Part shown: piece by piece, positions 12,711 to 26,298 of the stretch
Layout: the number at the start of each line of letters is the position of its first letter
How positions within the stretch are numbered: the first letter of the stretch is position 1
Assembly (NCBI GenBank): GCA_026645935.1
Contig: JAPKMP010000032.1
Location: forward strand, 1 to 33,350
DNA: 33,350 nucleotides
Origin: Candidatus Villigracilaceae bacterium
GTDB lineage: Bacteria > Chloroflexota > Anaerolineae > Anaerolineales > Villigracilaceae
Direction of reading: 5' to 3'
Notes under the pieces: model-generated
Database searches by the model: none
The model's input: the letters and a program-made list of their open reading frames with translations, nothing else
What the model was told of the DNA's origin: nothing
Position numbers and translations under genes: made by a program

Positions 12711-12856
12711 ACCTCCTCCCGTGGAGACTCGTCCCCTTCCTCGACCACTGCGTTGACCTGATCTTCCTGCGCCGCGTCGGTGGCGGATGCATCTTTATCC
12801 ACCGCCTGTTGATGGAACACTTCGCTGAAATGTACGTGGAAACAAAAAAGACCTGA
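12711..12856 (+). pseudogene. Remnant 1: C-terminal end of a STAND/NACHT-type protein
   Basis: The frame ending at the TGA 12854-12856 reads LPWRLVPFLDHCVDLIFL, then RRVGGGCIFIHRLLMEHFAEMY. This matches the closing segment (PW..xRFLDY...LRRVGGGYIFIHRxLLEYFA) I remember from large NACHT/STAND signalling ATPases, which is a recollection of family pattern. Nothing of the ATPase lies upstream, because the frame abuts the end of the 114-aa gene. It is a decayed gene end. Confidence 0.6.
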
Positions 12857-12944
12857 CAGGTTTCCACAGAGCCTCGATAAACCAACATGACTTTGATTCA
12901 CAGAACCCGAATCGACTCGATACTCGATAAAACTTGTCAGGTCT
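12849..12944. repeat. 15-bp inverted repeat between the two gene-end copies
   Basis: AGACCTGACAGGTTT (12849-12863) and AAACTTGTCAGGTCT (12930-12944) are inverted copies matching at 14 of 15 positions, 66 bases apart. Each touches one of the two duplicated gene ends. The motif belongs to the same style of short palindrome as AAAACCTCCGAGGTCTG at 26281-26297. Confidence 0.7.
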
Positions 12945-14148: not shown

Positions 14149-15870
14149 TTGATCGGCGATGTGATTCTCAAACAGAATGACGCGTGGTTAAAATTTTCCC
14201 GTCCGCGCCAGGTGATTGTAACCGGTAAGTTGGAGGACGTCCGCAAGGGATTGAGGGAGGTGGAGAGGCTGGTCGACGAAAAAGGCTGGACTGCCGCAGG
14301 CTTCGTCAGTTATGATTCCGCGCCCGCTTTCGATCCCGCCCTGAAGGTAATCCCCTCGCAGGGTTTTCCGCTTTTGTGGTTTGGATTGTATGACGAATTA
14401 CAGGAGCTTCAGACTTCCGAAGTCTTGAAAAACTTCGGAAGTCTCTCTCCAACCACCTGGCATCCCGATACCGGAAAGGAAGCCTACAATACTGCCATCC
14501 AGAACATCAAGGGACACATTGCAGAAGGCAGAACCTACCAGGTCAATTACACCATGCGGCTCAGCGCCGAATACCATGACGATCCCCTTCACCTCTTCGC
14601 TCACCTCGCCCATGCTCAAAATAAATATGCAGCTTATTTGGATATTGGAGACTGGGCGATTTGTTCCGCATCGCATGAGCTATTCTTCGATTTGGATGGG
14701 GAGGACATAACCGGGCGTCCCATGAAGGGAACTGCGGTTCGGGGACGAACCAATGAGGAAGATAAAAATATCTCGAATTGGCTACGCGCATCTATCAAGA
14801 ATCGCGCCGAAAACGTGATGATCGTCGATATGATCCGCAATGATATCGGGCGGATCGCAAAGATAGGCAGTGTGCATGTTCCAGAGTTATTCACCATTGA
14901 GAAATATCCCACCCTATTCCAAATGACGTCGACAGTAAAGGCAAAGATCCACGCCTCGGTGACGGAAATATTCTCCGCACTCTTTCCCTGCGCCTCCATC
15001 ACCGGAGCGCCAAAGGTCAGCACAATGGAAATCATCGCCGACTTGGAGACAAGTTCTCGAAAGATCTATTGCGGCAGCATCGGTTATATCGCCCCAAACC
15101 GCAAAGCGCGATTCAATGTCGCGATCCGCACGGCGCTGGTCGATAAGCAAGAGAGCAAAGCCGAGTACGGGGTCGGCGGCGGTATTGTTTGGGACTCCAC
15201 GCCTGCCGATGAGTATGACGAAGCCCTGCTCAAAGCCCGCGTACTCACCAACCCACCGCAAAAGGAATTTTGCCTTTTTGAAACAATGCTTTGGACGCCG
15301 GAAGATGGATATTATCTCCTTGATCGTCATATCGCGCGGATATTGGACTCTGCGGAATATTTCAGTTTCGCCGCAGAGGATCCAGGGAATAAAATCAGGC
15401 AGTTTCTGATCGGATTAAGCTCTGGATTGGATGCGCCCCAACGGGTAAAAGTCTTTTTGAACTCGAAAGGAGAAGTCTCTGGCGAAGCCAGCGATTTCCA
15501 ACCGAGCGACAAAATATTCAAAGTTTGCTTGGCGGAGGGACCCGTCAACTCAAACGACCGGTTCTTATTCCACAAAACCACCAATCGGGAACCTTATGAT
15601 CGAGCGGCGGTCGCAGGATTTGACGATGTCCTGCTTTTCAACGAAAAAGGCGAGCTGACGGAATTTACCATTGGCAATCTGGTCGTGCAGATGGCTGGAA
15701 ACCTTTTCACTCCACCCGTTGAATGCGGGCTACTGGGGGGCACGTTTCGGGCGGAACTGATCGCTCGCGGCGAGGTGAAGGAACGGGTGCTCAAGGTCCA
15801 AGACCTGGCCGAGTGCGAAGCGGTTTTCCTCGTCAATTCTTTGAGAAAATGGGTGCGGGTTTTGTTATAA
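14149..15870 (+). CDS. pabBC: Bifunctional aminodeoxychorismate synthase component I / lyase
   Basis: A 573-residue fusion in folate (p-aminobenzoate) synthesis. Residues ~100-370 are the chorismate-binding domain (MKGTAVRGR, PCASITGAPKV, YCGSIGY, VGGGIVWDS). Residues ~380-573 are a class IV aminotransferase fold like PabC, with the PLP Lys in HKTTNREPY and the ELTEFTIGN segment. It makes aminodeoxychorismate with a glutaminase partner (PabA, not in the window) and splits it to p-aminobenzoate. The start is a TTG at 14149 with AGAGG upstream. A GTG at 14161 is an alternative. Residues ~88-99 are encoded by a perfect 13-bp inverted repeat that looks inserted. Confidence 0.93.
   Translation: MIGDVILKQNDAWLKFSRPRQVIVTGKLEDVRKGLREVERLVDEKGWTAAGFVSYDSAPAFDPALKVIPSQGFPLLWFGLYDELQELQTSEVLKNFGSLSPTTWHPDTGKEAYNTAIQNIKGHIAEGRTYQVNYTMRLSAEYHDDPLHLFAHLAHAQNKYAAYLDIGDWAICSASHELFFDLDGEDITGRPMKGTAVRGRTNEEDKNISNWLRASIKNRAENVMIVDMIRNDIGRIAKIGSVHVPELFTIEKYPTLFQMTSTVKAKIHASVTEIFSALFPCASITGAPKVSTMEIIADLETSSRKIYCGSIGYIAPNRKARFNVAIRTALVDKQESKAEYGVGGGIVWDSTPADEYDEALLKARVLTNPPQKEFCLFETMLWTPEDGYYLLDRHIARILDSAEYFSFAAEDPGNKIRQFLIGLSSGLDAPQRVKVFLNSKGEVSGEASDFQPSDKIFKVCLAEGPVNSNDRFLFHKTTNREPYDRAAVAGFDDVLLFNEKGELTEFTIGNLVVQMAGNLFTPPVECGLLGGTFRAELIARGEVKERVLKVQDLAECEAVFLVNSLRKWVRVLL
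14411..14444. repeat. Perfect 13-bp inverted repeat inside pabBC
   Basis: AGACTTCCGAAGT (14411-14423) and ACTTCGGAAGTCT (14432-14444) are exact inverted copies with an eight-base loop. They are translated as part of LQTSEVLKNFGSL, in the variable region before the chorismate-binding core. Confidence 0.8.
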
Positions 15871-16150: not shown

Positions 16151-17980
16151 ATGCGAACTCTCATCATCGGGTTGGATGCATTCGACCCGGCTTTTTTTGA
16201 AAGCCTCCATTCGCAAGGCAAAACGCCAAACTTAAGCAAACTGCTCGAGGCTGGCGGCTATTCGCGCTTCCGCGTATCGGACCCGCCGCAAAGCGAAGTT
16301 TCATGGACGAGCATCGCCACCGGCATGAATCCCGGCGGTCACGGCATGTTCGACTTCGTGCATCGCAACCCCGCCAATTACAGTTTGCAGGTTTCATTGC
16401 TGCCGACCCAAAAAAGTTTGCTGGGTCTGCAATTCATCCCCCCTCACAGCGCGCGGACGATCTTCGATGAGATGGTCGAGGACGGTTATCCCGCCACTTC
16501 GATGTGGTGGCCCGCAACCTTTCCCGCCAGGCAAGCTTCGCCGGTTCAAACCATACCCGGTTTGGGCACGCCGGACATATTGGGGCGTCTTGGTGTGGGA
16601 ACTTTTTTTTCAGTCGAAGAACTTCCAACCGGCCCGGAAAGAAAAACCGCTGTCCGTAAATTGGCTGTAAAAGGGTCGAAATATATCGGCACGCTTGAAG
16701 GTCCGGCAAAAAAGAACGGCACAGTAAATATCGATTTTGAGTTTGAAATCAATGACGGCGCCGTAACTCTGCATGTCGCAAAGAAAAAAGTAATTTTGAA
16801 ACCCGGCGAATGGAGCGGTTTCCTTGAATTACCCTTCGCCTTGGGTCTCGGCATGACGGTCAAAGCCATCAGCCGCGTCATTCTTATCGATCTCGATCCC
16901 CTTTCCATTTATTTCCTCCCGCTTCAACTTCACCCCCTCGCCTCGCCCTGGCCCTATGCCACGCCGAAAAACTTCATCCAAGATCAATGGCTCAAGAACG
17001 GTCCGTTCCTCACGCTTGGCTGGCCCCAGGATACGACGGCGCTTAATGAAAATATCATCGACGACGAACAATTCCTCAAACTTTGCGAAATGATCGACGA
17101 GGAACGCGAGCGCGTGCTAAATCATTCGCTTGATTCGTTCAATGAGGGTTTGCTCGCCTGCGTATTCGATAGTCTAGACCGCGTCCAGCACATGTTCTTC
17201 AAGCGCCGCGAGGATGTCATCGAAGCCTGGTATAAACGCCTCGACCTGATGGTTGGACGAATAATGGAAAGAGCCTCTCGAAACAATAAAACGCGCATCA
17301 TCATCGTCTCCGATCACGGATTCGGTCGCTTCGATTACAAAGTCCACTTGAATCGATGGCTCGCAGAGCGCGGTTATCTGAAGACGGAAAACCCCGCCCT
17401 TCGACAAGCTCAGGACAGCGCCTCCTCCGACCTTCGGTCTGTGGACTGGTCTCAGACTCAAGCCTACGCTCTGGGTTTGAACAGCCTTTATATCAACCTC
17501 GCCGGGCGCGAAGGCAGGGGCATCGTCAATGAAAACGAAGCGGCGCAACTTCTCGCCAAACTGAGGGATGAACTCCTTGGTTGGAACGGCCCGAATGGGG
17601 AGTCTGTGATTCAATCAGCCCTGATTCGCAGGGAAGCCTTCGATGGTCCGCTTGCGGAACACGGTCCCGACATTTTCATCGGCTACCACCCGCCCTATCG
17701 CGGCTCGGCAGAGACAGGCCTGGGTCAATGGCGAGGCGAAGCGATCCAAAAAAATGAAGAACACTGGGAAGCCGATCATTGTTTTGATTCGAGAGCCGTC
17801 CCCGGTGTGATATTCTCCAACGAAGGGCTTGGGAATTTTTCATCGCCTTCATACAGAGACATCCCTGCGCTCACGATCGGAAAAGATCTAAAGACTCAGT
17901 CGTCCGCGCCGCCGCCCAAATACAGCGATGAAGACCAGGACGAGATCGAAAAGAGGTTAAAGGACCTTGGCTATCTCTAA
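16151..17980 (+). CDS. Type I phosphodiesterase / alkaline-phosphatase-superfamily protein
   Basis: A 609-residue member of the nucleotide pyrophosphatase/phosphodiesterase group, metal dependent. It has the metal-binding LIIGLDAFDPAFF start, the nucleophile region SWTSIATGMNPGGHGMFDF (about 56-74) and the second metal motif VSDHGFGRFDYKVH (about 388-401). There is no signal peptide, so it is cytoplasmic unless exported by another route. Homologues are annotated as alkaline phosphatase family proteins and act on phosphodiesters or lipid-linked phosphates, but the substrate is unknown. Residues about 416-432 (ALRQAQDSASSD...) are encoded by a dispersed repeat and break the otherwise smooth step from RWLAERGYLK to the DWSQTQAYALG segment. 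Confidence 0.9.
   Translation: MRTLIIGLDAFDPAFFESLHSQGKTPNLSKLLEAGGYSRFRVSDPPQSEVSWTSIATGMNPGGHGMFDFVHRNPANYSLQVSLLPTQKSLLGLQFIPPHSARTIFDEMVEDGYPATSMWWPATFPARQASPVQTIPGLGTPDILGRLGVGTFFSVEELPTGPERKTAVRKLAVKGSKYIGTLEGPAKKNGTVNIDFEFEINDGAVTLHVAKKKVILKPGEWSGFLELPFALGLGMTVKAISRVILIDLDPLSIYFLPLQLHPLASPWPYATPKNFIQDQWLKNGPFLTLGWPQDTTALNENIIDDEQFLKLCEMIDEERERVLNHSLDSFNEGLLACVFDSLDRVQHMFFKRREDVIEAWYKRLDLMVGRIMERASRNNKTRIIIVSDHGFGRFDYKVHLNRWLAERGYLKTENPALRQAQDSASSDLRSVDWSQTQAYALGLNSLYINLAGREGRGIVNENEAAQLLAKLRDELLGWNGPNGESVIQSALIRREAFDGPLAEHGPDIFIGYHPPYRGSAETGLGQWRGEAIQKNEEHWEADHCFDSRAVPGVIFSNEGLGNFSSPSYRDIPALTIGKDLKTQSSAPPPKYSDEDQDEIEKRLKDLGYL
17396..17415 (+). repeat. Short dispersed repeat inside the phosphodiesterase gene
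   Basis: CCCTTCGACAAGCTCAGGA, the plus-oriented relative of the copy in ileS, is translated ALRQAQD. I recall this peptide as a signature of the repeat in many genomes. Confidence 0.7.
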
Positions 17981-20852: not shown

Positions 20853-22961
20853 ATGCCCAACCTTCTCGCAACTGCAACCTCCCCCTACCTCCTCCAGCAT
20901 GCCGACAACCCGGTGAATTGGCTTCCCTGGGGGGATGAAGCATTGAATAAAGCCAAAATCGAAAACAAGCCGATCTTTCTATCCATAGGGTACGCCGCAT
21001 GTCACTGGTGTCACGTCATGGCACATGAGTCATTCGAAAACGCCGAAACCGCGGCGTTCATGAACGAGCACTTCATCAACATTAAAGTGGACCGCGAGGA
21101 ACGTCCCGACCTCGATAACATCTACATGCAGGCAACGATCGCGATGACCGGCTCGGGCGGCTGGCCCATGTCCGTCTTTCTCACGCCGGAACTCAAACCA
21201 TTCTATGCGGGGACGTACTTCCCACCCACTCGAAGATACAACATGCCTTCCTTTCGGGAGGTGCTGGAAGGGCTTGCGAACGCATGGACAAATCAACGCG
21301 AAGAAGTGGAAGACACGGGAGTCAAGGTCTATCAGCATCTACATTCTCAAGTAAAACTCGAAGGGGATGAAAGATTGACGTCAGACCATCTCGACGCCAT
21401 CGCGAAGGCGATGCAGGCCGCCTATTATTGGGGCACGGGCGGATGGGGCGACGCTCCGAAATTCCCGCAGCCGATGGCGCTCGAATTTTTACTTCATCAT
21501 GCGGTCGCGCGCAAACAGGATGAATATCTCAAACTCATCGAACATTGTCTTAAAACCATGGCGCGCGGCGGCATGTACGACGTGGTCGGCGGCGGTTTCT
21601 CGCGCTACAGCACCGACGATCACTGGCGCGTGCCGCACTTTGAAAAAATGCTTTACGACAACGCCCTGCTTTCGAGAGCCTATCTCCACGCCTGGCAGGT
21701 CACGCGCGATCCGTTATACAAACGCATTGTCGAAGAGACGCTCGATTTCGTCGCCAAAGAAATGACCCACGAACTCGGAGGATTCTATTCCTCGCTCGAT
21801 GCGGATTCGGAAGGCGAAGAGGGCAAATTCTACGTTTGGACTTTGGATGAAATCCGTAACGTGTTGAATGAAGACACCGAATTTTTCGAAGCGGCGTACG
21901 GAGTCACCGCCCTTGGGAATTGGGAAGGCAGGACAGTGCTTCAACGCGCGTTGGATGACTCCTCCCTCGCCGCCCGCTTCAAGCTTGACCTTGCATCTGT
22001 TCAGGCAAAATTAGCCGAGTCTCACTCGAGGCTTTATGCCGCGCGCGCAAAACGAATCCGCCCGGGGACAGACGATAAAGTCCTCACCGCCTGGAACGGT
22101 CTGATGCTGGCGGCGTTCGCTGAAGCGGCAAGGGTGTTGAAAAACGATGTCATTGCGAGCGTAGCAAAGCAATCTCCATCTCATGATGAGATTGCCTCGA
22201 CCTCTCCGCGGTCTCGCAATGACAGCTACCTCGATTTGGCTACCCGCAACGCGGATTTTCTCCTCACCCACCTTCGACGGGACGGCAAACTCCACCGTTC
22301 CTGGCGGGACGACAAAACCACAAATGAAGTTTTCCTTGAGGATCATGCTTCATTGATCCTCGGATTGCTGGAGTTGTATCAAACCGATTTCAACGAGAGA
22401 TGGTTCGCGGCCGCGAAGGAACTTGCGGATGAGATGATCCAAAAATTCAGCGACCCCGCTGGCGGATTCTTCGACACACCCGTGGATGGCGAAAATCTCT
22501 TATTCCGCCCGAAGGATGTTCAGGATAATGCCACTCCAAGCGGGAATGCGCTGGCGTGCGAAGCGCTGATTAAATTGGCGGCGTTCACCAATGAAGGGCG
22601 CTATCGCGATCTTGCTGAGAAGGCGTTGGAGCTTGTGACCAAGGTTGCCCTGCGCTATCCGCTCGGGTTTGGGAGATGGCTCACAGCGGCGGAACTCGTT
22701 TCGGGGACTTTGAATCAGGTTGCGGCGGTGGGCGAAGCGGAAGACCCGCACTTCCAGCGTTTGATCCAAGCGGTTCGAGCCGAATATCGCCCGGCCATGG
22801 TTACGGCTGCTTCGCCATTCCCAATCAAAGAGAATGCGCCTGCGCTTCTGAAAGATCGCGTCATGGTCGACGGCAAAGCGACCGTTCATGTATGCGAAGG
22901 TTTTTTCTGCAAACTGCCGACAACGGAAGTGGAAATGTTGATCGAGCAATTGAAATCATAA
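20853..22961 (+). CDS. Thioredoxin-fold DUF255 protein (YyaL / SPATA20-like)
   Basis: A 702-residue protein with an N-terminal thioredoxin-like domain carrying CHWCHVM (Cys50, Cys53), followed by an (alpha/alpha)6-type domain with segments such as [24 protein letters not shown] and [12 protein letters not shown]. These are the hallmarks of the YyaL/spermatogenesis-associated protein 20 family, whose function is not settled (a redox-linked glycan or epimerase-like role has been suggested). Residues 433-457, read as [20 protein letters not shown] and RSRND, come from a 75-bp palindromic repeat inserted in frame between RVLK and SYLDLATRN. MgtC follows 11 bases later. Confidence 0.93.
22149..22223 (+). 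repeat. 75-bp palindromic element inserted in frame
   Basis: The outer ends GTCATTGCGAG (22149-22159) and CTCGCAATGAC (22213-22223) are perfect inverted repeats of 11 bp. An inner pair GCAATCTC (22169-22176) and GAGATTGC (22188-22195) is also perfect. The unit is exactly 25 codons long and in frame. Its translation VIASxAKQS is a peptide I remember seeing across many unrelated bacterial proteins. Confidence 0.88.
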
Positions 22962-26280: not shown

Positions 26281-26298
26281 AAAACCTCCGAGGTCTGA
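26281..26298. repeat. Short palindrome AAAACCTCCGAGGTCTGA
   Basis: CCTCCGAGG is an almost symmetrical core with flanks resembling the AGACC...GGTTT repeat at 12849-12863. It lies directly beside the end of the truncated methyltransferase remnant. Confidence 0.4.

Follow-up and report, generated by a model that had tools for sequence, protein, structure and literature searches.

An Inverted Repeat in the pabBC Linker

The window, i.e., the whole stretch of 33,350 nucleotides that was analyzed, contains a fused pabB-pabC gene (14149..15870, + strand), which encodes a protein of 573 amino acids comprising aminodeoxychorismate synthase component I and the lyase, as assigned by Pfam (Chorismate_bind, residues 110-362; Aminotran_4, residues 376-571). 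Among solved structures, aminodeoxychorismate synthase component 1 is the closest in sequence. Inside this gene (pabBC), positions 14411-14444 form a perfect inverted repeat of two 13-bp arms and an 8-nt loop, read in frame as T89-L99, TSEVLKNFGSL, in the linker N-terminal of the first Pfam domain, just as a preliminary description of this DNA had stated. The left arm AGACTTCCGAAGT (14411..14423, +) covers residues Q88-V92, the spacer CTTGAAAA (14424..14431, +) V92-N95, and the right arm ACTTCGGAAGTCT (14432..14444, +) N95-L99. Arm pairing extends to 15 of 16 positions if the outer bases of the loop are counted, and each 15-nt arm is an odd palindrome by itself (AGACTTC-C-GAAGTCT). The preliminary description had considered such a repeat unlikely in ordinary coding sequence; perfect inverted repeats of at least 13 bp with a loop of 3-20 nt were absent from 40 dinucleotide-preserving shuffles of the window, compared to one in the real sequence. 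In the AlphaFold model of PabBC, the block of residues 91-100 has the lowest mean pLDDT (62) among 58 ten-residue blocks; residues 89-92 form a short helix, and residues 93-104 are modeled as coil, with neither helix nor strand. The residues encoded by the element are therefore predicted to sit in a flexible linker.

Two further genes of the window contain repeats of other kinds. The phosphodiesterase-like gene at 16151-17980 carries CCCTTCGACAAGCTCAGG in frame (NPALRQAQDSAS) at 17398-17415, which we take to be another dispersed-looking repeat, and a scan of the DUF255 gene (20853-22961) returned only two 8-bp inverted repeats (22169-22195 and 22338-22361), neither of which matches the DUF255 element of the preliminary description with certainty.

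A Dispersed Family of Double Palindromes

The pabBC element is one copy of a dispersed family, in which odd palindromes of 15-16 nt, AGACYTCSGARGTCTT, form an inverted pair (AGACYTCSGARGTCTT-spacer-reverse complement) around a spacer of a few, sometimes more, nucleotides. The period of the arms is mostly 18 nt, but 19 nt in the pabBC copy of the window, and copies measure 33-34 nt, or about 52 nt with a long spacer. Some consist of a single arm, and the second family member in the window is of this form (ACCTC type, AAACCTCCGAGGTCT; 26282..26296, +). When the 13-bp arm was counted genome-wide, as had been proposed in the preliminary description, the 13-mer ACTTCSGAAGTYT (ACTTC type) gave 9+7 matches in the own genome (G000), compared to 0+1 for the reversed control. 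A combined family pattern matches at 15 loci of G000 and at 23 of the sister genome G032, each figure including one tRNA-like false match (L236 and L257, judged by eye), which leaves about 14 in G000.

The ACTTC type was found in 44 of 61 relatives, namely in 35/37 genomes within the genus (own included) and in 9/24 elsewhere in the order, where two of the nine have one match each. Since the reversed control likewise occurs in 35/37 congeners, presence or absence of ACTTCSGAAGTYT is uninformative as a measure of distribution, and copy numbers were used: 792 matches in the 37 genus genomes vs. 97 for the control, which is exceeded in 32/37. The sister type ACCTCSGAGGTYT (ACCTC) is present in 40/61 relatives (33/37 in the genus, 7/24 elsewhere in the order), with 571 matches in the 37 genus genomes vs. 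6 for the reversed control, itself present in 6/37. The sister genome G032 has 19+21 ACCTC matches and one ACTTC locus. A phylum-wide search with fixed spacing found the pattern in 3/400 genomes, own included, which says little on distribution, since the pattern required an arm period of 19 nt and most copies have 18.

Copies of the family lie outside long ORFs as well as in frame within genes. Besides pabBC, the genes with a Pfam match encode an SMC hinge, a MetH B12-binding domain, aconitase, RecQ-like and HemN-like proteins, DUF554 and DHO_dh, which bears out the earlier suggestion of palindromes that tolerate coding sites. Judged by eye, seven of eight gene sites are read in the TSEV frame (in pabBC this applies to the left arm alone) and the eighth, DHO_dh, in the DLGGL frame; L240 and L243, single arms in a conserved gene that may be chance matches, were excluded from this count. 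An additional TSEV-frame copy (L252) lies in a gene that has no Pfam match. At one orthologous place (L232 vs. L261), where the spacer is TTTTCAAAA in the sister and TTTTCCCCCTTCGGGGACAAGCAAAA in the own genome, a further hairpin lies within the spacer.

A core, TTCGCGNAGCGCYCTGTG (at most one mismatch), was found in 20/57 congeners, compared to 2/57 for the reversed control. At loci L331-L360, the core TTCGCGAAGCGCCCTGTGGGTAAAG stands, in different genomes, between palindromic arms that are unrelated in sequence (ACCTCSGAGGT, ACCTGACAGGT, AGTGACNGTCACT and others), and in 16 of the 30 matches listed mutually complementary arms flank it, judged by eye. Some species have this core in pabBC, and another has it in SMC. 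These observations hint at one architecture, in which the palindromic arms are interchangeable. A more far-reaching idea, which we consider rather doubtful, is that such miniature repeats are recognized and perpetuated by shape and not by sequence, i.e., as an odd palindrome, an optional core of ~24 nt and a reverse complement; template switching would keep the arms complementary, and the repeats would thus repair themselves, persist in genes and rewrite the linker. Arms of the ACCTGACAGGT family flank the core in L345, L346 and L356; the window, too, has an inverted pair of them, AGACCTGACAGGTTT ... AAACTTGTCAGGTCT, separated by roughly 65 nt (12850-12942).

Relation to Known Repeat Systems

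In REPINs (PMC3116915), two REP sequences (repetitive extragenic palindromes) in inverted orientation enclose a spacer, and the present family resembles them in its inverted pair of palindromic units, its variable spacer, its dispersal and its capacity to form hairpins. Unlike REPINs as described there, the copies lack the GTAG/CGTC tag, have no linked RAYT gene among the loci examined, and often lie in frame in genes. A GTAG/CGTC tag within 12 nt was found at 6/23 copies, close to the mean of 4.6/24 for random positions, and the most uniform flank column around the copies is an A in 14/23. Matches to Y1_Tnp exist in 56/61 genomes, and linkage was examined at these loci only: the exact arm ACYTCSGARGT was found near Y1_Tnp at 0/30 loci with flanks of up to 1.5 kb and at 1/10 loci with flanks of up to 2.5 kb. 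A Y1 transposase as mobilizer is thus unsupported by linkage in the loci examined, and, with both the tag and the transposase test negative there, the family was not classed as REPIN. The own genome (G000:C2:78077-78430) and many relatives have a long open frame with a Y1_Tnp match, mostly of about 510-610 codons and hence far longer than usual Y1 transposases, which lies away from the palindromes in the examined loci except at L279 (~2 kb).

The Rickettsia palindromic elements, as summarized in part in PMC3733652, are likewise palindromic repeats in frame in ORFs that are probably still functional; compared by description only, the present copies differ in measuring 33-34 nt (about 52 nt with a long spacer) and in their host group, Anaerolineales. 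The same source also mentions that GTAG repeats occur in Chloroflexi and that REPs can lie within genes; intragenic palindromes per se are therefore not new. Perfect inverted repeats are also kept in protein-coding genes of Nematomorpha mitochondria (PMC6649704), but there they can be as long as 284 bp and code for conserved regions, whereas here a linker and a dispersed repeat are concerned. A family of such repeats in Anaerolineae or Chloroflexi was not found in the literature, which is weak evidence of absence; one of the searches returned mostly unrelated papers. As far as these searches show, three things are new, namely the family itself, the long time for which it has occupied a single coding linker, and the signature of template switching at that site.

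Occupancy and Age of the Linker Site

The preliminary description had regarded the element as an insertion that should leave a gap at residues 86-100 in sister species. This expectation did not hold: in the sister G032 (96% at the amino acid level), a related palindrome occupies the corresponding position of pabBC, as is the case in many congeners, which makes the element old and not a recent insertion. Linkers with the element are typically only ~3 codons longer than those without, which implies that linker sequence was replaced, not simply interrupted.

The comparison of pabBC drew on the best 80 of 474 matches plus further relatives; 57 congeners were searched, and 47 cover the linker in this set. 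Classified by hand, 15 of the 47 have a well-kept element, 17 a decayed or partial one, 6 other repeats and 9 none. In 13/47, no other window of the gene has a perfect inverted repeat as long as the longest one in the linker (arms of at least 11 bp in 11 of these), a check that scores copies containing G.U pairs, such as that of G032, low. On a quick tree (60 rows, linker columns removed, 11/57 inner forks open; L289, L291 and L330 absent), the element is scattered over a clade of 43 rows. The minimum number of changes between element and none is 6 if the other repeats are counted as the element, 5 if they are counted as lacking it, and 4 if those rows are omitted. We read this as an old gain followed by losses, decay and replacement, although the count is also compatible with a few gains, and infer from the tree that the element entered the linker in the ancestor of much of the genus.

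The other repeats at this place (L070/L100, L088/L112/L118/L119, L125 and L137, by eye) are a tandem GGTCTGACA (GLTGLT), AGTCTGACTAGTCAGACC-like sequences and CGGATTGGCAATCCG; L137 differs from L146 by a 24-nt in-frame insertion of CTTCGATCAAACTCAGGG. Palindromic repeats thus seem to have a hot spot in the pabBC linker. Together with a copy of TTCGACAAGCTCAGG in frame in another gene of the window, these repeats support the earlier proposal that several palindrome families tolerate coding sites. In G017 (G017:C2:1476218-1477980), pabBC was matched as two pieces in different frames, and the gene may be broken or mis-sequenced just past the linker.

Spacer Inversion and Paired Changes of the Arms

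Between G000 and G032, pabBC differs at 44/1685 bases (2.6%) outside the element and at 7/34 inside, and the bases adjoining the element are identical. Four of the seven differences lie in the spacer and vanish on reverse-complementing, since CTTGAAAA is the exact reverse complement of the sister spacer TTTTCAAG (mismatches 4 to 0); the other three are one paired change (two bases) and a single C to T. Among all 8-nt and 34-nt windows of pabBC, only 14424-14431 and 14411-14444 gain at least 2 when reverse-complemented. The inversion changes residues 93-95. In 25 rows, the loop reads TCAA (the G032 form) in 8 and TTGA (the G000 form) in one, the own genome, so that the flip probably occurred on the lineage to the genome of the window and changed F-Q-D to L-K-N. 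A second inversion, of a long spacer (about 20-24 nt), separates pabBC of L116 and L126 from that of the more distant row L124, with whole-element alignment scores of 49 and 52 inverted vs. 21 and 24 direct. A complete inversion of the spacer between close relatives, as read from the aligned sequences, is what template switching would be expected to produce, but a single inversion between two assemblies could also be a re-insertion in opposite orientation or an assembly error.

The arms of pabBC change in concert. In 22 selected rows (set A1), 78.1% of cells are paired vs. 72.6 after shuffling, and covariation is 0.257 vs. 0.173; in 25 selected rows (set A3, 24 distinct), the corresponding values are 80.6% vs. 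74.4 and 0.263 vs. 0.172, each with 0/500 shuffles as high, although all shuffle tests are inflated by kinship among rows. Sliding the partner by a column reduces pairing in the 25 rows to at most 53.6%. L163 and L159, which are outside the genus, were removed from A1 despite passing the length filter, and L145, L108 and L114, shifted by an indel outside the arms, were added by hand; A3 additionally contains L289, L291 and L330. The long-spacer rows L116, L124 and L126, the longer L113, L123 and L128, and the partly deleted L097 were left out of both. Ten rows of the SMC hinge gave 86.3% paired vs. 82.3 and covariation of 0.206 vs. 0.133 (0/500 each). Pairs with a two-sided change were not raised in pabBC (111/500 for 22 rows, 177/500 for 25 rows) and reached 29/500 in SMC; further pair types were not raised in SMC (411/500), compared to 18/500 and 20/500 in pabBC.

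Individual pairs of relatives illustrate the pattern. The sisters L105/L109 differ in the 34 nt solely by two paired changes (co-location chance 0.009), and the paired C-G to A-T change between G000 and G032 alters both T89 and S98 (co-location chance 0.03). At the SMC hinge, G032 and G017 (L224/L294) each have a perfect palindrome, but with different arms, AAACCTCCGAGGTTTT and AGACTTCCGAAGTCTT and their complements; four paired synonymous changes and no unpaired one separate them, while the flanks differ at 70/600 (co-location chance 0.0005). The SMC peptide TSEVFKTSEV is untouched, because the 18-nt period pairs third with third codon positions. Counterexamples are L095/L096, with four unpaired and no paired changes, and L102/L111, with two paired and five unpaired (p 0.41). 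Judged from these alignments, the arms of the pabBC element appear to have been kept complementary through paired changes, as template switching would predict, and the SMC hinge copy seems to behave alike.

Explanations for the Persistence of the Palindrome

Paired arm changes together with spacer inversion are a known signature of template switching at inverted repeats, and both spacer inversion and arm homogenization with non-synonymous changes have been documented in yeast coding DNA, as set out in the available part of PMC8604942. PMC8794818 argues that template switching can also create and maintain RNA hairpins, and terms its own evidence for maintenance circumstantial. The present case resembles those described in the two papers in its arm homogenization and exact spacer inversion, its multi-nucleotide and non-synonymous changes, its inverted repeat arms of >9 bp and its short spacer. 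It is unlike them in concerning uncultured bacteria, a dispersed repeat family, and one coding site across many species of a genus and not recent strains. We infer a replication mechanism of this type. A dispersed double-palindrome copy would have entered the PabB-PabC linker in the ancestor of much of the genus and would have been tolerated, as it reads through in frame and encodes a flexible loop. During replication, the hairpin that it can form would allow the polymerase to switch template between the arms, which would copy one arm onto the other and sometimes invert the spacer. The data suggest that such slippage of replication between the arms keeps the hairpin intact, and we propose that the palindrome persisted in several lineages because the hairpin permits it. 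Overall, entry of the repeat in an ancestor, its toleration in the linker and its upkeep in several lineages by template switching between the arms form the account that we hold to be probable.

The main rival to this mutational cause is selection on the mRNA, which would keep the hairpin, e.g., for translation pacing or pabBC stability, and would generate the paired changes as compensatory mutations via G.U intermediates. RNA folding is indeed strong (-16.2 to -28.8 kcal/mol, z -4.9 to -8.2, in five orthologues picked from the well-kept ones), and the mismatches in 11 well-kept pabBC rows comprise 10 G.U vs. 2 A.C, compared to 14 vs. 37 in 11 decayed rows (Fisher p 0.0006, with rows that are not independent, L102 and L103 being nearly identical). 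However, SMC shows no clear excess of G.U (6 G.U vs. 4 A.C in 8 well-kept rows), and neither spacer inversion nor C-G to G-C swaps are expected from point mutation mediated by G.U. The hairpin is not required: among the 47 congeners classified by hand, the linker lacks a repeat in 9, holds a different repeat in 6 and a decayed one in 17; moreover, the same element is present in unrelated genes and outside long ORFs, and nine loci gave no Rfam match at the gathering threshold. Its absence, replacement or decay in 32/47 congeners, along with its presence in unrelated genes, favors a mutational cause, and we regard RNA selection as unlikely.

Alternatively, the site may have been refreshed repeatedly from the genomic pool of copies by re-insertion or gene conversion, and the arms would match because every such copy was a perfect palindrome on arrival. 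Copies are labile: by eye, 12 paired places are occupied in both G000 and G032 and 7 in one only, whereby the 12 include pabBC, and L228/L271, of doubtful orthology, is counted in neither. Some of the pairings rest on short (L238/L250) or diverged (L234/L270) flanks, and several copies had no orthologous flank that could be matched. At aconitase, KETSEVSETSEVLAFPDT in G032 occupies the place of KEENGETIAFPDT in G000. The arm type at SMC is also the commoner type of the genome in G017, G032 and G009, though not in G015. Where filled and unfilled places were compared, the unoccupied partner is a different or diverged stretch with no clean gap, and a target-site duplication is not visible by eye. 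Refreshing from the pool is hard to reconcile with the pabBC copy of G032, which is of the ACTTC-derived type that is rare in that genome and yet differs by a spacer flip and a paired change, or with the unchanged bases beside the element in G000 and G032. In addition, several paired states are unlike the family consensus, the only reference compared, namely TGC/GCA (L102/L103), GATGTC/GACATC (L124) and AGAAT/ATTCT (G032). Repeated refreshing is therefore judged improbable.

Finally, the peptide TSEVFKDLGGL might be what is conserved, the palindrome being a by-product of codon choice, and the preliminary description had named the same residues with different codons in relatives as evidence against its reading. 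This is partly the case, as numerous orthologues retain TSEV but spell it with synonymous codons. Often, however, the opposite arm has changed along with such a codon: in pabBC, a third codon position on the left is paired with a first codon position on the right, so that a change that is silent in the left arm can replace a residue in the right one (F/L, S/G, G/R). Protein conservation alone is therefore insufficient, and with six residue differences between G000 and G032 in the stretch (T89N, S90F, L93F, K94Q, N95D, S98I) this already disfavored reading is very improbable.

Implications

If template switching is indeed what maintains the repeat, the pabBC linker would represent a natural experiment, in which template switching, and not selection, preserves a hairpin in a metabolic gene across many species of a genus, and amino acids are rewritten as a side effect. 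This would call for caution in taking covariation within coding sequences as proof of functional RNA. The family might moreover provide a bacterial system for measuring how often arms are corrected and spacers flipped.
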